Positions 1,402 to 20,240 of a stretch of DNA of 20,240 nt are shown in pieces. The translations under genes and the position numbers were made by a program. The stretch's first letter is position 1; every line of letters begins with the position of its first letter. Source of the stretch: a virus; IMG/VR virus record IMGVR_UViG_3300022752_000484, positions 1 through 20,240 of that record; one strand, given 5' to 3'. The notes under the pieces are model-generated. The model searched no databases and was not told the DNA's origin. It saw nothing but the letters and a program-made list of their open reading frames with translations.

Positions 1402-2568
1402 ATGAAAAAAACAAAATCAATTGGCGTAGTTAAGTACACGCAAGACGGAAAAGCTTTCATTTCCGAATTAGGAACTGGTAATGACATTACTTCATTGTTC
1501 CGATCCATTATGGTGCAACATGCAGTAGACAACAATGAAGCATTAATATTTGATCATGAAACGGGTCGTGCTAAAAGAATTGGATTAGACCAAATTAATC
1601 AAGAAGAAGTAATACTAACCTCAGACCCTCAACCTCAAACTAAACAAGACGCAGATCCAGTATTAGCATTGATTCAAAATGCACATAAAATTAAACCTGC
1701 TAGCTTAGAAATGTCTGACATTAAATGGAAGTATCTAGTTAGATCAGCCGTGCGAGGTAAAAACATCATGATGGTTGGCCCTGCAGGATGCGGTAAGACA
1801 CAGGCCGCTAAAGAATTACCTATAGCAACTAATCGACCATTCTTTTATTTTAACTTGGGTGCTACGCAAGATCCTCGAGCAACTCTTATTGGTAATACAC
1901 ACTTCAAGCAAGGCGAAACTACCTTTGATGAGTCAGCATTTGTTAGAGCAATTCAAACAGAGAATGCAGTTATTTTGTTGGATGAGTTATCCAGAGCTCA
2001 TCCTGAAGCATGGAATATTTTAATGACAGTGCTTGACGAAGGACAACGCTATTTGCGATTAGATGAAGATGTTGACTCACCAACTATACAAGTTGCAGCA
2101 AATGTATCCTTTATTGCTACAGCAAACATTGGTACGGAGTATACTTCAACACGCGTATTGGATAGAGCATTGATGGATCGTTTTGAAATTATTGAAGTTG
2201 ATATATTGTCATTGTCTCAAGAAGAAGACTTATTGCAAAAGCGATACGGCAATAAAGTATCAACTAGTTTGATTCATGCAGTCGCAGATATTGCAGATGC
2301 AACCCGCAAAGAATGGAGATCAGAAGAAGGCAAACTATCAACAATGATATCAACGCGTATGACAGTTAGAGTATGCGAATTGTTAGCCGACGGATTTTCT
2401 TTGTCAGAAGCCGCTGAGGTTGCAATTATTCCTTTCTTTGATGCATCAGGCGGTGCTGACTCTGAAAGAACATTTGTTAAACAAATCATTCAGAAGCATA
2501 TGGCAACTGAAATGAAAGATATATTTAATACAGGGAATGATGCTTCAAACGAAGCAATACCGTTTTAA
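1402..2568 (+). CDS. MoxR/CobS-type AAA+ ATPase
   Basis: A 388-residue AAA+ protein. Walker A is GPAGCGKT (126-133), Walker B is AVILLDEL (189-196), sensor 1 is FIATAN (237-242) and a candidate arginine finger is DRALMDRF (254-261). The insert around PRATLIGNTHFKQGETTF and the order of motifs fit the MoxR/CobS branch, whose members remodel proteins or help load metals together with a VWA-domain partner. The next gene encodes such a partner, so the two probably act together; this is an inference from gene order. Residues 1-100 have no recognised domain. It has its own promoter and is followed by a terminator-like hairpin. CobS-like proteins are known in large phages, where their role is unclear. 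Confidence 0.9.
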   Translation: MKKTKSIGVVKYTQDGKAFISELGTGNDITSLFRSIMVQHAVDNNEALIFDHETGRAKRIGLDQINQEEVILTSDPQPQTKQDADPVLALIQNAHKIKPASLEMSDIKWKYLVRSAVRGKNIMMVGPAGCGKTQAAKELPIATNRPFFYFNLGATQDPRATLIGNTHFKQGETTFDESAFVRAIQTENAVILLDELSRAHPEAWNILMTVLDEGQRYLRLDEDVDSPTIQVAANVSFIATANIGTEYTSTRVLDRALMDRFEIIEVDILSLSQEEDLLQKRYGNKVSTSLIHAVADIADATRKEWRSEEGKLSTMISTRMTVRVCELLADGFSLSEAAEVAIIPFFDASGGADSERTFVKQIIQKHMATEMKDIFNTGNDASNEAIPF

Positions 2569-2583
2569 TTTTTCATAGCTCGA

Positions 2584-2621
2584 AGAGGGGTGGATCGCTA
2601 AACGTCTGCCTCTCTTTTTTT
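2584..2621 (+). terminator. Probable intrinsic terminator after the ATPase gene
   Basis: AGAGG (2584-2588) can pair with CCTCT (2609-2613), with a few extra pairs inside the loop, followed by seven T at 2615-2621. The stem is short and the loop long, so it may be weak. The next promoter starts 10 bp downstream. Confidence 0.5.
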
Positions 2622-2631
2622 CTATTTCCGG

Positions 2632-2662
2632 TTGGATATTACTGGATAATTTCTTATAATAT
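2632..2662 (+). promoter_or_regulatory. Phage promoter for the zincin/VWA gene
   Basis: CCGG precedes TTGGAT (2632-2637), then 17 bp, then TATAATAT (2655-2662). The 18 bases from the -10 box onward (2655-2672) are identical to those at the groEL promoter (4771-4788), so the initially transcribed region is conserved too. Confidence 0.82.
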
Positions 2663-2680
2663 TTATATAAAAATAAAGAT

Positions 2681-4765
2681 ATGAAACAAGCAGGCAAAGT
2701 AGTTACAACGTACGTTCCCAAGTATGCATCTAGCTTTTGGTTAGATAGAGACTTCGATACCGATTTTAAACGAGAAGATGGTGGTGTAGATTTAACTAAG
2801 TTAGCAGCTGCTCAACGAGCTATAGGTAATTTTGTTAATATTGTTACAGGCAAACAAATTCCAGTAGTTTTTCAAAGCAATGACTCAAGTTATACAGATG
2901 GCGAGCGTGTTGTTATTGGAACTAGTCTTAAAGATAAAGACTTTGACCCCGCAGTAGGATTAGCTCTTCATGAAGGTTCGCACATATTGCTTACGGACTT
3001 TACATTGTTCAAAACAACCACAGGCTCAAATACTTCATACTTAGAAAATACGGTATTTGCCAATGCAATACGAATGAAAGGATTAGATCCGGACATGACA
3101 ATGACTAGAGCACAATTTGGTTTGATAAAAGATTTATTGAATTGGATTGAAGACCGTCGCATCGATTATTATATTTATACAAATGCTCCAGGTTATCGTA
3201 TGTATTATGAAGCAATGTATAACAAATACTTCAATGATAAAATTATTGACACGGCTTTAGAATGTGGTGAAAAATGTAATGAGTCAATTGATGATTACTT
3301 TTTTCATATCATCAATTTTACTAATCCAAAAAGAAAATTGGATGCATTAAAAGAGTTGAGATCTATATGGAATGTAATTGATTTGCAAAACATAAGTCGT
3401 TTACGCAATACAAATGATGCATTAGATGTAGCGTGCCAAGTATATAAATTGATTATTGGTGCAGTTAAGGAACAAGAACAACAGACGGCATCGACACAAA
3501 TTACACCTAGCGAGTCTGGCAGTGAACAAGGAACTTCAATGTCAGGTGCAGGCGGGGATGCTGATGATGATATCGAAGGAGATGGCGACGGAGAAGGTGA
3601 AGGTGAAGAAGGCGATGGCGAAGATACTCAATCTAAATCATTATCCGAACGGCAACTTGAAAAATTGCAAAAAGCTTTGCAAAAGCAAAAAGATTTTCTT
3701 GCCGGTGACATGAAAAAAACTGGTAGATTATCAAAAGCACAAGCAGCTACCGTTAATGCATTACGAGAATCAGGCACCGAAGTTAGAATGGTAGATACTT
3801 CGATGGGCGGCCCAATGAATTCAATTGAATCAGTTGTTATTAAAAAATTGACTTCAAACATTATTTGCACAATGCCAAGTTTATTTAGTAATATGTCTGA
3901 TGAATACATTAATGGTTCAAGAAATTATGAAGCAGATGTAATTGCAAATTCGAATAGAGTTAAACACATTCAGCGTAATGATGAAGCAGTTCAGAGAGGC
4001 ATCATTTTAGGCAAACAATTAGGTCGTAAATTGCAAGTACGAGATTCGGATCGAACTCTTAAGACTACAAGATTGGCAGCCGGTAAAATTGATAGACGTT
4101 TAGTTTCTCAATTGGGTTATGATAATGTCAATGTATTTCATCGAATCGTAACGGATCGTTATAAAAATTATTTCATACATATTTCAATTGATGCATCAGG
4201 CTCGATGAGCGGAGATAAACTAAGAAATGCAATAACATCTGCAGTAGCTATAGCACAAGCAGCTTCAATGACAACGGGTATTAGAGTTCAAATATCATTG
4301 CGAGGAACAGACTGTTTATCTTCATCTAGAGAAAAGACAGTTACATTGTATGCATATGATTCTGCACATGACAAAATGTCTAAGATTAAATCAATGTTTA
4401 AGTATCTAGACGTATTTGGATGTACTCCAGAGGGCATTGCATTTAAAAGTATTGAAAAAGACATCAAGCAAGATGCAAAAGGCGATGAATGTATTTTTAT
4501 AAACTATTCAGATGGCGAACCTTCTAATGTATATGGAACGCAATATTCTTATAATGGAGAAGAATATACCCGTAGAGTCATAAACGGTTTCCGAGAAATA
4601 GGAATGAATATTATTTCATATTTTATTTACCAAGGGACAATATATGCCGGAACGAAACACGCATTTCATACAATGTACGGACCAGATGCTCAATTTATTG
4701 ACCCGGTGAATATGTCACAAGTATCCAGAACAGTTAATCAAAAGTTCTTGGAAATGGCTGAATAA
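2681..4765 (+). CDS. Zincin-like metallopeptidase fused to a VWA domain
   Basis: A 694-residue protein. An N-terminal HExxH motif (LHEGSH, His97-Glu98-His101) is followed about 56 residues later by NWIEDRRID (154-162), whose Glu could be the third zinc ligand. Residues about 265-320 form a linker rich in Gly, Asp and Glu. The C-terminal third is a von Willebrand A domain with a MIDAS motif DASGS (Asp504, Ser506, Ser508). This layout resembles CobT-like or VWA metallopeptidase partners of MoxR ATPases, and the ATPase is the gene just upstream. No signal peptide is seen, so it is likely cytoplasmic. The substrate is unknown. A role in remodelling or processing proteins during infection is inference. 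Confidence 0.85.
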   Translation: MKQAGKVVTTYVPKYASSFWLDRDFDTDFKREDGGVDLTKLAAAQRAIGNFVNIVTGKQIPVVFQSNDSSYTDGERVVIGTSLKDKDFDPAVGLALHEGSHILLTDFTLFKTTTGSNTSYLENTVFANAIRMKGLDPDMTMTRAQFGLIKDLLNWIEDRRIDYYIYTNAPGYRMYYEAMYNKYFNDKIIDTALECGEKCNESIDDYFFHIINFTNPKRKLDALKELRSIWNVIDLQNISRLRNTNDALDVACQVYKLIIGAVKEQEQQTASTQITPSESGSEQGTSMSGAGGDADDDIEGDGDGEGEGEEGDGEDTQSKSLSERQLEKLQKALQKQKDFLAGDMKKTGRLSKAQAATVNALRESGTEVRMVDTSMGGPMNSIESVVIKKLTSNIICTMPSLFSNMSDEYINGSRNYEADVIANSNRVKHIQRNDEAVQRGIILGKQLGRKLQVRDSDRTLKTTRLAAGKIDRRLVSQLGYDNVNVFHRIVTDRYKNYFIHISIDASGSMSGDKLRNAITSAVAIAQAASMTTGIRVQISLRGTDCLSSSREKTVTLYAYDSAHDKMSKIKSMFKYLDVFGCTPEGIAFKSIEKDIKQDAKGDECIFINYSDGEPSNVYGTQYSYNGEEYTRRVINGFREIGMNIISYFIYQGTIYAGTKHAFHTMYGPDAQFIDPVNMSQVSRTVNQKFLEMAE

Positions 4766-4795: not shown

Positions 4796-6417
<1,622 letters not shown>

Positions 6418-6418
<1 letters not shown>

Positions 6419-6928: not shown

Positions 6929-7065
6929 TTAAAAGAAAAAAACCCGGTAAATTTAAACGTATGATGATTGGCATACGTGCATTTTGGATAGGATTTATAA
7001 TATATCCTATAGCAGCATTTGTAATTGCAATTGAATCTTTATTTTCTAAGAAACGCGATGAATAG
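6925..7065 (+). CDS. Small single-pass membrane protein (46 aa)
   Basis: ATG 6925, TAG 7063-7065. A very basic N-terminus (MIKRKKPGKFKR) is followed by one hydrophobic segment (about 18-40, FWIGFIIYPIAAFVIAIESL) and a charged tail. The positive N-terminus suggests it faces the cytoplasm. It overlaps thyA by 8 bases. Too short for family assignment; function unknown. Confidence 0.6.
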   Translation: MIKRKKPGKFKRMMIGIRAFWIGFIIYPIAAFVIAIESLFSKKRDE

Positions 7066-8128
7066 TTTAGATAGACAATACCAGGATCTTTTGTTTGAAA
7101 TAATAACATGCGGTACCGTGAAAGATACACGCAATGGTAAAACCGTATCGGTATTCGGTCGGCAAATTAGACACAAGATGAAAGATGGTTTTCCTTTACT
7201 TACCACAAAGAAAATGTACTGGAAAGGAATTGTAACAGAGTTGTTATGGTTCTTGCGTGGTGATACAAACATTAAATACCTTGTTGATAATGATGTTCAT
7301 ATTTGGGATGGTGACGCTTATAAGAATTATGTGAGTAAACAAACAACTGAAGATGTTGGTTCAATGAATTGGTTTATTGAACAAATCAAAACAGATTTCG
7401 AATTTGCTAAGAAATGGGGTGAACTAGGTCCTGTTTATGGGAAGCAATGGAGAAAGTGGAAAGGTAAATTAGTTGATAAGTCTATAGAATTTAATGCACA
7501 CACAGCTTGGATACCAGAACAAATAGACCAAATCGCAAATCTAATCAACGACCTAAAAACAAATCCAGATTCAAGACGACTAATGGTTTCAGCTTGGAAT
7601 GTAGGTGAATTAGACCAAATGGTTCTTCCACCTTGTCATTACGGATTTCAAGTTTATACAAGAGAGTTGAGTTTAGAAGAGAGAAAACAAATCTTCGATG
7701 ACAGAGGCTATGTTTGTGATTTATGGCCTTTTAATGGTGATTGGCACGGTGAGTATGATGGTTTTGGAATACCTCGTAGAGCAATCTCCTTAATGTGGAA
7801 TCAACGTTCAGTAGATACATTCTTAGGTTTACCATTCAACATTGCTTCTTATGGATTGTTATTGGAGATAATTGCAAAAGAAGTTAATATGGTTCCTGAT
7901 GAATTGATTGGTAATTTAGGTGATGTGCATTTATATCAAGACCATTTATCGCAAGCACGCGAACAAATAACAAGACAACCGTATCGATTACCTAAACTTG
8001 AAATGAACGGTCAATATTGGGTAACCGATTGTGGTTTGGATACTCATATTTTATCCATGTTGATTGAAGATTTTCAAGTTAAAGACTATGAATCACATTC
8101 AACAATTAAAGCGCCTTTACTGAACTAA
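7058..8128 (+). CDS. thyA: Thymidylate synthase ThyA
   Basis: Converts dUMP to dTMP using methylene-tetrahydrofolate, supplying thymine nucleotides for phage replication. From ATG 7058 the protein has 356 residues. It shows GRQIRHKMKDGFPLLTTKK (34-52), GPVYGKQWRKW (124-134), the arginine motif PDSRRLMVSAWN (170-181), catalytic Cys193 in PPCHYGFQVY (191-200), GLPFNIASYG (257-266) and GDVHLYQDH (288-296). It is longer than the 264-residue E. coli enzyme because of inserts around 92-160 and 205-245, a long form I associate with Bacteroidota. A start at 7025 is possible, but 7058 matches the conserved N-terminus (LDRQYQDLL) and overlaps the upstream stop in the style of this genome. Confidence 0.96.
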   Translation: MNSLDRQYQDLLFEIITCGTVKDTRNGKTVSVFGRQIRHKMKDGFPLLTTKKMYWKGIVTELLWFLRGDTNIKYLVDNDVHIWDGDAYKNYVSKQTTEDVGSMNWFIEQIKTDFEFAKKWGELGPVYGKQWRKWKGKLVDKSIEFNAHTAWIPEQIDQIANLINDLKTNPDSRRLMVSAWNVGELDQMVLPPCHYGFQVYTRELSLEERKQIFDDRGYVCDLWPFNGDWHGEYDGFGIPRRAISLMWNQRSVDTFLGLPFNIASYGLLLEIIAKEVNMVPDELIGNLGDVHLYQDHLSQAREQITRQPYRLPKLEMNGQYWVTDCGLDTHILSMLIEDFQVKDYESHSTIKAPLLN

Positions 8129-16147: not shown

Positions 16148-16507
16148 ATGCATCAACATGTAATTCATAGCAAACAACAAGTTAGATCAATGCGAAGAGG
16201 TGAGTCTTTATTTCCTCCTATCATTGTTAATTTTATTACAGGTCGAACTATGATATTTCATGATGCTGAAGGAGGTAGCATACGAGTAGCAGAAGATGTT
16301 ACGGCAGAAGATGCAAATGCTATATGGATTAGGCGGCAATTTAAACAACGCGTCTTTAACGGAGATGCACAATATCAAATTGCAAGTTCGTCAGGATCTA
16401 CATATACCGTGACATTGCAAAATGCTAGATGGTCATGTACATGTGCCGGGTTTGGCTTTAGAAAACGTTGCCGTCATTTAGAACAAGCAAAACAACAACA
16501 CAAATGA
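16148..16507 (+). CDS. SWIM zinc-finger protein (119 aa)
   Basis: The C-terminus has a complete SWIM motif, CxCx8CxH: Cys97, Cys99, Cys108 and His110 in WSCTCAGFGFRKRCRHL. SWIM domains bind zinc and usually DNA or protein partners. The upstream region (about 70-95) gives the beta strands that normally precede it (YQIASSSGSTYTVTLQ). The first 60 residues hold RRGESLFPPIIVNFITGR, with no known domain. It is not attached to a helicase or transposase as many SWIM domains are. It may be a small phage regulator; this is inference. It has its own promoter and overlaps the next gene by ATGA. Confidence 0.82.
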   Translation: MHQHVIHSKQQVRSMRRGESLFPPIIVNFITGRTMIFHDAEGGSIRVAEDVTAEDANAIWIRRQFKQRVFNGDAQYQIASSSGSTYTVTLQNARWSCTCAGFGFRKRCRHLEQAKQQHK

Positions 16508-16875
16508 GAATAAGAATCAATCAAATTGAATGCCGTTTCAGTCAAGGTCGTTATGAAATCATTAAATGGTATCCTAACGGTTATTACGGCAAAGAGCAAG
16601 AATACGTTGACAATGGTTGGGAATTAAGCGGAGGCTTCTATCGAAATGACAATGTTAGTATACATGAAAATTGTTTTGTGAATCCAGAGTCTTGCTATAC
16701 CGTTGCCACACTGCATTATGATGATGGAGAAGGTTGCTGTGATATGCATACCGTAGGGCCGAGACTATTGCAATTAAGTAAATCAGAGCGTGCTGATTTC
16801 TTTGCAGTATATGAATATGCAGAGGATAGAATCCGAGAAAAAGAATTAGATAAACAAGAAGAAGTAGAATATTAA
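16504..16875 (+). CDS. Conserved phage hypothetical protein (123 aa)
   Basis: ATG 16504 in the ATGA overlap is preferred to the in-frame start at 16468. The N-terminus reads MRIRINQIECRFSQGRYEII followed by KWYPNGYYGKE, a pattern I recall from other phage genomes. The middle has aromatic residues and cysteines (10, 42, 57, 74, 75). The C-terminus is a charged helix (AEDRIREKELDKQEEVEY). Function unknown. It may be co-expressed with the SWIM protein. Confidence 0.75.
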   Translation: MRIRINQIECRFSQGRYEIIKWYPNGYYGKEQEYVDNGWELSGGFYRNDNVSIHENCFVNPESCYTVATLHYDDGEGCCDMHTVGPRLLQLSKSERADFFAVYEYAEDRIREKELDKQEEVEY

Positions 16876-16885
16876 ATTTATATAC

Positions 16886-17383
16886 ATGTTTTTATTATCA
16901 TTAATATTGGCATCACAAGTCAATTGTGCATCTATACCAAAAGACACGTTATCATTAAAAAATATCAACGATAATAGTATTATCCGTAATGGCATCGAAT
17001 ACAATGTATTGTTTGATAACATGGTTGGACATATCAATATGTCTGCAGATTTTCGTGATATGAATAAGCATAATAATTGGAATTACGCAGAATATTTTGA
17101 TATAGATTTTTCTATAGCACGGCCATTGCTTATAACTGAATCGATATCTAAGCGTGTTAAACAATATAAATCAACTATTAATACTCAATTGAAATCTAAT
17201 TATCGATACCGTTTATTCTTTAAAAGAATTACAGATCCCGCTGCGGCAATGTTTGGTGATGGTATTGATGCAGGAAAAATCAAATTAAATTCAATTTTAA
17301 TAACATGTATACATGATAATGAAACATTATTTATTTTTCAATCTCATGATAATATGTGGTATTATTTTACAATTTTAAATTAA
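16886..17383 (+). CDS. Exported hypothetical protein with signal peptide (165 aa)
   Basis: MFLLSLILASQVNCASIPKD is a signal-peptide-like start: a hydrophobic core and small residues before a possible cut near residues 14-16. It lacks the usual basic first residues. The mature part is mixed and contains several basic and aromatic residues (SKRVKQYKSTINTQLKSNYR). No known domain. It starts a run of four exported or membrane mini-genes, which suggests an envelope role such as host interaction. That role is not shown by the sequence. Confidence 0.7.
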   Translation: MFLLSLILASQVNCASIPKDTLSLKNINDNSIIRNGIEYNVLFDNMVGHINMSADFRDMNKHNNWNYAEYFDIDFSIARPLLITESISKRVKQYKSTINTQLKSNYRYRLFFKRITDPAAAMFGDGIDAGKIKLNSILITCIHDNETLFIFQSHDNMWYYFTILN

Positions 17384-17742: not shown

Positions 17743-17862
17743 ATGAATAATATCAAATATTTATTTTTAGTGCTACCGATTCTTACTTTTTGCAAGTACA
17801 ATGACGGCAGAAAAGAAATAACTTTTGGGTGGCTTACAAAAACATGGACTTTAAAATTTTAA
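17743..17862 (+). CDS. Tiny exported or lipoprotein-like protein (39 aa)
   Basis: ATG 17743, TAA 17860-17862. MNNIKYLFLVLPILTFCKYN is a signal-like hydrophobic start ending LTFC, only loosely a lipobox. The rest is 19 residues with aromatic and basic character. It lies between copies B and C of the repeat, whose ribosome-site side (AATAAG-ATGA) it shares. Coding status is uncertain. Confidence 0.5.
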   Translation: MNNIKYLFLVLPILTFCKYNDGRKEITFGWLTKTWTLKF

Positions 17863-19139: not shown

Positions 19140-19150
19140 TTCAATTACAA

Positions 19151-19175
19151 GGAAGTCTATATGGCTTCCTTTTTT
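19151..19175 (+). terminator. Strong intrinsic terminator after the frameshifted gene
   Basis: GGAAGTC (19151-19157) pairs with GGCTTCC (19163-19169) over loop TATAT, followed by six T at 19170-19175. It closes the operon before the long non-coding region. Confidence 0.88.
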
Positions 19176-19268
19176 ACTGACCGCAAACTAACAAGTAGCC
19201 GTAGCAATGTAATGTTTACGGATACTGAAGACAAATATATAGAAGAAGACAGCATATACAAACACATA

Positions 19269-19319: not shown

Positions 19320-19384
19320 GCATACATAACGTATGAATCCCGTACCCAGGTTACTAGGTGGTGTATTTTTAGTTGAGAGTCTAG

Positions 19385-19412
19385 TATCTTCCCCACCCCG
19401 AGCGATTTTTAG
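19385..19412 (+). repeat. Imperfect 27 bp direct repeat, copy 1 (copy 2 at 19877)
   Basis: ATCTTCCCCA, then CCCCGAGCG, then ATTTTTAG here. Copy 2 at 19878-19904 reads ATCTTCCCCA, TCCCGGGTT, ATTTTTAG. The flanks are identical and the middle differs at a few bases. Distance about 492 bp. Confidence 0.7.
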
Positions 19413-19816
19413 TCCGAATCTTGATAAAAGTGCTAGACGTATTTTTAGATGAAAATGCATTTTTAGTGTCTAGTAGCATTCAGCAAGACAGGTTAGATAT
19501 CTCCCTGCCGGTCCTACGCGTTTCTACGGGGCATAGTCTCTATATTACGGGTCTAATGGATTCAAACCCTTAAAACGGCCTCGATGTTCTTAAACGAACT
19601 GTATGGCGCGGGAGAGGGTAACGGCTATTTTTAGGCGAAGTGGCCTTATTTTTAGATGAAGTGGATGTTATTTTTAGAGCAATACCTGATTCTATTTTTA
19701 GACGAAGTGGATTCTATTTTTAGTCTCTATATATAGTATATTTGCTTTTAGATGCGATCTCACGTATATAGAGAGTAACCTGGTATCGCGTATATAGTGC
19801 ACGTAGTGCTGATCAT

Positions 19817-19834
19817 GTTCAGATCACTAGCTAT
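19817..19834 (+). repeat. Exact 18 bp direct repeat, copy 1 (copy 2 at 20020-20037)
   Basis: GTTCAGATCACTAGCTAT occurs at 19817-19834 and again at 20020-20037, 203 bp apart, flanking the second cluster of T5 motifs. Copy 1 lies in an imperfect inverted repeat (AGTGCTGATC ... GATCACT). Confidence 0.85.
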
Positions 19835-20064
19835 TGAGCGTCCTATTTTTAGAGCAATATCCGTACATTTTTAGATGATCTTCCCCATCCCGGGTTATTT
19901 TTAGACGAAATTCAGGCTATTTTTAGAAAAAACAGCCTTTTATTTTTAGACGAAGTGGTTGTATTTTTAGTCCTATTTTTAGTCCAGGCCTCGTTTTTAG
20001 CCCCATTAGAACGGTTTTAGTTCAGATCACTAGCTATACAGAGTAAACGTTTTTGCACGTTTGG

Positions 20065-20095
20065 TTGGATATGTGCGCGCGTTATCATATAATAT
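20065..20095 (+). promoter_or_regulatory. Phage promoter at the right edge of the repeat region
   Basis: TTGGAT (20065-20070) preceded by GG, 17 bp, TATAATAT (20088-20095). It fires rightward, away from the repeat array. Confidence 0.82.
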
Positions 20096-20116: not shown

Positions 20117-20203
20117 ATGGCAATTGTAATATTAATAGCAGTAGTGTTAGGGATCGGTGCTTACATGGATTGGCGCTTTAACCGAGACGATTGGAATAAT
20201 TAA
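20117..20203 (+). CDS. Tiny membrane protein (28 aa)
   Basis: ATG 20117, TAA 20201-20203. MAIVILIAVVLGIGAYMDW forms one membrane helix and is followed by RFNRDDWNN. A full-consensus promoter and an AAGAAG ribosome-site-like sequence precede it, which supports expression despite its size. An alternative start at 20112 is in another frame and stops at once. The last 37 bases of the window hold nothing I can name. Confidence 0.55.
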   Translation: MAIVILIAVVLGIGAYMDWRFNRDDWNN

Positions 20204-20240
20204 CGACGGGGTCCGGGATTGATGTGCTCGCAAGACACAC

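Follow-up and report, generated by a model that had tools for sequence, protein, structure and literature searches.

T4-type phages of lake Bacteroidota are, to our knowledge, mostly uncultured, and we know of no control sequences described for them. Elsewhere, trans-acting antisense RNAs direct their loops against translation-start regions, for example the C-rich loops of staphylococcal sRNAs. Plasmids and the Vibrio satellite PLE (RepA_N) have iteron origins, in which a protein binds direct repeats and its specificity and the repeats can change jointly; in PLE, it has been shown that the DNA-binding domain of RepA and the ori vary together (PMC8263062). In T4 itself, 12-nt "iterons" have been described at oriE. 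They are kept in the syntenic regions of close relatives and their role has been called ill defined (PMC3016281).

The window analyzed here, a stretch of 20,240 bases which is an entire IMG/VR record classed as a linear fragment, carries near its right end 16 exact copies of ATTTTTAG, all on the + strand between 19365 and 19982 (Table 1). This count and orientation, reported in a first-pass annotation of the window, were borne out; one stray extra copy is located at 17763, and dinucleotide shuffles of the whole window contain 2.6 copies on average and 7 at most. Similarly, the two clusters with steps of mostly 20–24 bp are real (spacings of 21, 22, 24 and 22 bp, and of 22, 30, 22, 23, 21 and 12 bp), as is the exact 18-bp repeat GTTCAGATCACTAGCTAT. 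The region had also been called gene-free. More precisely, it is bordered on its left side by a terminator, and at its right end a possible 28-codon ORF and the start of a structured RNA are found. By reading, a terminator-like hairpin is located at the equivalent place in the related locus L087. Hairpin H is not considered a terminator since no T follows it. Alignment of block B from 21 sequences gave no consistent RNA fold (RNAalifold, −0.9 kcal/mol, almost structureless), and a CTAGCTATA element is present in most array loci.

Table 1. Coordinates of the features surrounding the repeat array in the window.
Feature	Position	Strand	Remarks
Intrinsic terminator of the upstream gene block	19149..19178	+	AAGGAAG-TCTATATGG-CTTCCTT with a T tail behind it; delimits the region on the left
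Hairpin H, AGTAGCCGTA / TACGGATACT	19194..19226	+	Kept in most of 14 sequences; positive covariation (RNAalifold)
First motif group, four ATTTTTAG	19365..19466	+	At 19365, 19405, 19441 and 19459; homologous positions in L053 and L105
Conserved block B, GTGTCTAGTAGCAT ... GGGGCATAGTCTCTATAT ... GATGTTCTTAAACGAACT	19467..19600	+	Aligned in 21 sequences
Second motif cluster, five ATTTTTAG at 21–24 bp	19627..19723	+	No variation in the motif columns across aligned relatives
AT-rich inverted repeat TTAGTCTCTATATA / TATATAGAGAGTAA and TATATAG copies between clusters	19720..19798	+	14-nt arms, 93% complementary
18-bp repeat GTTCAGATCACTAGCTAT, left copy	19817..19834	+	Repeat family D6
Third motif cluster, seven ATTTTTAG at 12–30 bp	19845..19982	+	
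18-bp repeat GTTCAGATCACTAGCTAT, right copy	20020..20037	+	Overlaps the conserved CTAGCTATAYRGAGTAA element ahead of the promoter
Promoter P, TTGGAT - 17 bp - TATAAT	20065..20093	+	Box forms and constant spacing kept in relatives
Possible 28-codon membrane micro-ORF MAIVILIAVVLGIGAYMDWRFNRDDWNN	20117..20203	+	Similar ORF in L217
Structured RNA module E, 5' half, AACGACGGGGTCCGGGA...GTGCTCGCAAGACACAC	20202..20240	+	Module cut by the window end

When viral contigs were scanned for three consecutive motifs, 106 stretches were obtained, many of which are simple tandem or coding repeats. The same non-coding element was recognized in about 25–30 related phage contigs, in which the motifs are invariant, the spacers divergent and the flanking blocks conserved. 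Within the arrays, 311 copies of exact ATTTTTAG were counted versus 22 of the next variant. In each of the 20 records searched over their whole length, the array is located in one region and on one strand, the exceptions being a small second group within 4 kb in G015 and one stray pair in G005; a control pattern read backwards is nearly absent from these records. The conservation and synteny check proposed in the first-pass annotation thus gave a clear answer, the motif array being kept in relatives at one per genome. The motifs point in the direction of nearly all genes in two long records (169 and 140 kb). ATTTTTAG is rarely used elsewhere in the genomes, and a function as a general or late-promoter motif was rejected on this basis. 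In cellular genomes, the array pattern returned matches which lack the other blocks of the element and look like plain repeats, none resembling the phage element, and DNA-level searches of named phages with the region from the window or from L141 gave chance matches only.

The phages carrying this array are T4-type lake phages, probably of Bacteroidota. Related records of 160–173 kb encode T4-type proteins, and in G001, genes which we take to encode DNA polymerase, gp32, UvsX and terminase were recognized by sequence. The N-terminal 60 residues of the terminase are nearest to those of Flavobacterium phage immuto (59%), and gene order suggests that the genomes are circularly permuted. A Bacteroidota host appears likely from the downstream-gene promoters, whose TTG ... 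TA-nn-TTTA form is near the −7 box of Bacteroidota, TAnnTTTG (PMC9723704). The uncultured "Far-T4" phages from freshwater viromes (PMC4360716) are of a similar type, this name being a lead and not an assignment. In the near-complete G005, G009 and G013 and in several shorter contigs, most ends are no more than about 15 kb away from the array, which could reflect assembly trouble, hypervariable genes or a real packaged-end feature.

In 21 of 25 neighborhoods, a sigma-70-type factor (Pfam Sigma70_r2) is encoded 2–7 kb downstream of the array, and further loci were retrieved by alignment of this factor with no reference to the array. All the clear relatives obtained in this way whose upstream DNA spans 4.8 kb or more carry the ATTTTTAG array except L224 and L226, while that of L227 is degenerate. 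Within 10 kb, L226 is devoid of an array; it contains a cluster of tRNAs. In L224, the same locus (7465–7640) contains an array of ATTTTTCG, ATATTTCG and ATATTTGG, mostly at multiples of 11 bp, next to the same promoter; in a pattern scan for ATTTTTCG, the promoter was also present only in L426, which is L224's own contig. A structured RNA follows the L224 array, seemingly closed by a long-range stem and ending with a T-run.

A third motif was found in phage immuto (Flavobacterium phage immuto_2-6A, MW353175), where positions 66,275–66,900 (16,275–16,900 of locus L185) contain a one-strand array of ACCCGT at ~12 bp, made of 13 exact and about 21 near copies which are mostly 11–13 bp apart and form two clusters around a middle segment. 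Outside this region, ACCCGT occurs just five times on that strand, and in the published annotation the array stretch contains two tiny ORFs only. A pattern scan with ACCCGT proved too unspecific. Like the window locus, this region is located right ahead of a small-gene cluster which includes homologues and has a shared leader, and it contains two one-strand repeat clusters. In contrast, its motif is ACCCGT at 12 bp, its shared leader is UAUCAAUAAUUAAAAC, and it has no clear anti-leader loop. Between 67,640 and 73,850, 15 copies of TATCAATAATTAAAA are present, nearly all directly ahead of annotated genes, as would befit a shared leader or promoter of the immuto small-gene cluster. We conclude that the motif turns over but that position, orientation and an 11–12 bp unit are preserved; therefore, a sequence-specific protein is favored, and T-tract curvature disfavored, as the function of the array.

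The spacing of the motifs was analyzed across 27 arrays. Among 251 gaps of at most 80 bp, which are not fully independent as related arrays share ancestry, 35 are at 11–12 bp, 107 at 21–25 bp, 46 at 30–36 bp and 19 at 13–20 bp, and the same pattern was obtained with 217 sequence-distinct intervals. The spacing quantum is ~11–12 bp and not 10.5 bp. None of 5000 jittered sets comes near the phasing of the 27 arrays, whereas 307 of 5000 jittered controls reach that of the window, which taken by itself is only suggestive. The helical phasing initially claimed for the window, once compared with control spacings, is thus strong at the level of the 27 arrays, with a unit of 11–12 bp. The curvature initially proposed was also computed and is moderately raised in most ATTTTTAG arrays: the predicted curvature of ATTTTTAG arrays exceeds that of dinucleotide shuffles (mean z of 2.5) and, modestly, that of jittered-motif arrays (mean z of 1.4; 10 of 25 below 0.05). 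Phased T/A-tracts with raised predicted curvature are what intrinsically bent DNA would require, the tracts curving the helix to aid promoter P or packaging with no sequence-specific partner. In such an element, the tracts would be conserved and not the exact sequence or strand, whereas ATTTTTAG is strict down to its final AG and kept in a single orientation, the ACCCGT of immuto is no T-tract and the spacing quantum is closer to 11–12 than to 10.5 bp. This explanation is therefore highly improbable, and curvature, as predicted, is unlikely to be a conserved function of the array since that of immuto is without T-tracts. The cooperative binding of a protein, also put forward in the first-pass annotation, is well supported by the invariant motif, its one orientation, the quantized spacing, the occurrence of a single array in each genome and the retention of its position when the motif differs. 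Collectively, these sequence data suggest that the repeats are probable iteron-like binding sites for a sequence-specific protein.

Promoter P had been described as a full-consensus promoter, which is inaccurate: its −10 box, TATAAT (20088–20093), is perfect but its −35-like box, TTGGAT (20065), matches at 3/6 positions only. In a promoter pattern scan of the window, promoter-like sites were no commoner than in shuffles. Promoter P is credible because it is conserved in relatives. In about 20 distinct arrays, it starts 14–115 bp past the last motif and is composed of two boxes a fixed distance apart, the first of TTGG type and the second of TATAATAT/TATTATAT type. Between the boxes, ATTTTTAG is found in L141 and L085, and the variant GTTTTTAG in L062. 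Hence, of the outward promoter initially proposed to prime an origin, the promoter stands by its conservation, but its product looks like a terminated regulatory RNA. Conserved promoter-like and terminator-like sequences are present in relatives, and transcription is predicted to end at terminators about 300 nt past P.

The part of this RNA located 3' of the window end was read from relatives, the closest of which, L105 and L217, come from a single contig and are 86% identical to the window over the array region. The micro-ORF is unrelated or absent in relatives other than L217 and thus is not a constant part of the locus. Module E was found in full in 11 relatives, with compensatory changes, and contains in most relatives a hairpin with a GNRA loop. 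While 97% of its 176 base-pair cells are kept, 14 cells are changed on both sides versus 4.6 in shuffles, none of 500 shuffles reaching this value. This covariation reveals a conserved RNA structure, as would be expected for a trans-acting antisense RNA. In Rfam, the window and ten relatives match tRNAs only, with no match above the gathering score for the structured RNA. In L141, L062, L085 and L059, a second conserved RNA module follows the promoter, with an internal loop AACCACAAG ... CUAACACC within a long stem; it occurs in several branches of the relatives, and its order relative to module E varies.

This organization bears on what the repeats themselves may be. If the region were transcribed, the AUUUUUAG copies could act at the RNA level as a sponge for an RNA-binding protein, in agreement with their location on one strand, which in the long records examined is that of the genes. 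However, P is downstream of the array and a terminator is ahead of it, quantized spacing is needless for single-stranded RNA, and the folding of the array scores no better on the sense than on the antisense strand, so that we give a sponge very little credence. A partition site would be consistent with the 11–12 bp direct repeats, which are like centromere iterons, but lytic T4-type phages are not known to us to partition, and a Pfam scan of the neighbors revealed no ParR/ParM or TubR/TubZ genes. Likewise, a packaging site is hard to reconcile with the headful packaging of T4-type phages, which requires no strict pac site. The repeats could also be tandem −10 promoter elements, as TATTTTTA resembles the TAnnTTTG box of Bacteroidota (PMC9723704); nevertheless, the motif is scarce in the rest of the genomes and hence no general promoter element. 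Even taken together, partition, packaging and tandem promoter elements are poor candidates.

In most relatives, a terminator-type hairpin, or a pair of them, closes the RNA, the loops having sequences such as UUUCUCUCUCUUAUUU; the RNA of some genomes contains CAUAUCUCUC as well. These sequences are complementary to a leader (AAUAAGAGAUAUG, AAAGAGAGAUAUG) located right before the start codons of downstream genes. In most conserved families downstream, 75–91% of the members carry this leader (48% in the case of the sigma factor), against near 0% in most upstream families; in two long genomes, it is found mainly less than 10 kb past the array. Perfect antisense of at least 8 nt was found in the RNA region for 187 of 312 leaders, compared to about 41 with dinucleotide-shuffled RNA, 45 with windows taken 40 bp upstream and 20 inside genes. 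As some RNA regions also gave many same-sense matches, probably because they run into the leader of the next gene, the test was repeated with the loops alone (at least 7 nt) on the sigma-retrieved loci: 260 of the 443 genes lying up to 10 kb downstream were positive, as opposed to 31 of the 207 lying upstream. In most cases, the terminator loops are predicted to belong to stable hairpins and to be about 80% unpaired; exposed loops with above-chance complementarity are thus present in the relatives, those of the window lying past its end. The main weakness of this evidence is the low complexity of leaders and loops (AAGAGA / TCTCTT), which inflates chance matches. The leaders are not ordinary ribosome sites, since Bacteroidota are devoid of Shine-Dalgarno sequences (PMC6847099). 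Like trans-acting antisense RNAs, the putative P RNA is short, structured and terminator-bearing, with exposed loops complementary to many start regions; it differs in being phage-encoded and directed against its own clustered genes, and in having as target a special leader instead of a Shine-Dalgarno sequence. In immuto, the anti-leader loop was sought and none was clear or convincing, and by reading it is apparently absent from L224. As both carry an array, it appears that array and antisense loops can part company.

The same locus could be an iteron-type replication origin, in which a phage initiator would bind the array and open the AT-rich segments, with the P transcript priming or regulating initiation. 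Its repeats are regular, one-orientation direct repeats in non-coding DNA, as in iteron origins, and they are single copy and spaced near 11/22 bp. In addition, the locus contains AT-rich inverted repeats, a promoter and an RNA directly adjoin the array, and motif turnover occurs as in initiator/iteron pairs. T4 also initiates replication at some origins from promoter transcripts, yet its own origins have no common motif (PMC3016281). The array, with its presumably protein-bound direct repeats and changing motif, is reminiscent of plasmid and PLE origins, but PLE contains three ~30-bp iterons versus roughly 7–19 copies here (PMC8263062), and no initiator gene is known here. No initiator family was detected among the neighbor genes scanned, most of which are without known family. 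Silent-site GC skew showed no consistent change at the array in seven genomes, and transcription appears to be terminated about 300 nt after P. We thus consider an origin less likely than not, but the main alternative. Total and silent-site GC skew was rejected as an origin marker, G001 alone being suggestive and the other genomes failing to confirm it.

The array shares with T4 oriE a T4-type phage context, evenly spaced direct repeats, an early promoter and small early genes. However, the oriE repeats are inside gene 5 in the T4 record, and both motif and position differ: instead of being associated with gene 5 and repEA/repEB, the array is intergenic, among small genes and 2–7 kb from the sigma factor. 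Homology with oriE was therefore rejected, the latter being in a different place and in coding DNA. In T4 (NC_000866, 79,425–79,570), the direct repeats near oriE have a 24-nt (8-codon) unit and belong to gene 5; the oriE "iterons" may for this reason partly reflect protein sequence.

Since GC skew is inconsistent, no initiator was found and the transcript is seemingly short, we favor, at about even odds (probability of roughly 0.5), an operator-type array controlling an antisense-RNA gene. The array would provide direct-repeat, iteron-like sites for one sequence-specific DNA-binding protein, from the phage or the host, and would constitute the upstream control region of promoter P. The protein would assemble cooperatively along these one-sided sites and thereby set the activity of P, from which a short structured RNA ending in terminator-type hairpins would be transcribed. 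The loops of this RNA would pair with the shared leaders and change, most likely block, translation of the downstream gene cluster. Two observations count against an operator: 1) 7–19 sites over several hundred bp exceed the needs of a simple one and 2) block B is left unexplained. Operator and origin could both hold for one locus; as the array adjoins the promoter of an RNA with leader-complementary loops, the locus resembles a control hub, which may double as an origin, more than simply bent DNA. More tentatively, and with less than even confidence, it may be a master locus shared by a whole group of T4-type Bacteroidota phages, in which a fast-evolving iteron array would drive an antisense RNA acting through one non-Shine-Dalgarno leader on a contiguous regulon of 10–20 genes, loops and leaders being matched in each genome.

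A single-copy array whose motif changes at a kept position and spacing offers a handle on the evolution of protein–DNA recognition, and it is amenable to experiment in the cultured phage immuto. The antisense part, if true, would represent a lytic phage running its own gene block via one RNA in a host which does not use Shine-Dalgarno sequences.

Several neighboring genes deserve mention. In L120 and L141, about 5–8 kb after the array, a 315/316-aa AAA ATPase with similarity to T4-type nrdC.10 is encoded, which carries the leader in most relatives. The window itself encodes at 1402–4765 a MoxR-type AAA ATPase beside a 694-aa protein with weak CobT/VWA similarity, whose nearest named relatives are just 34–38% identical. 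It also encodes a GIY-YIG/NUMOD3 homing-type endonuclease (551–1174), a protein which by reading is a GroEL-like chaperonin (4808–6418) and a thymidylate synthase (7025–8128).
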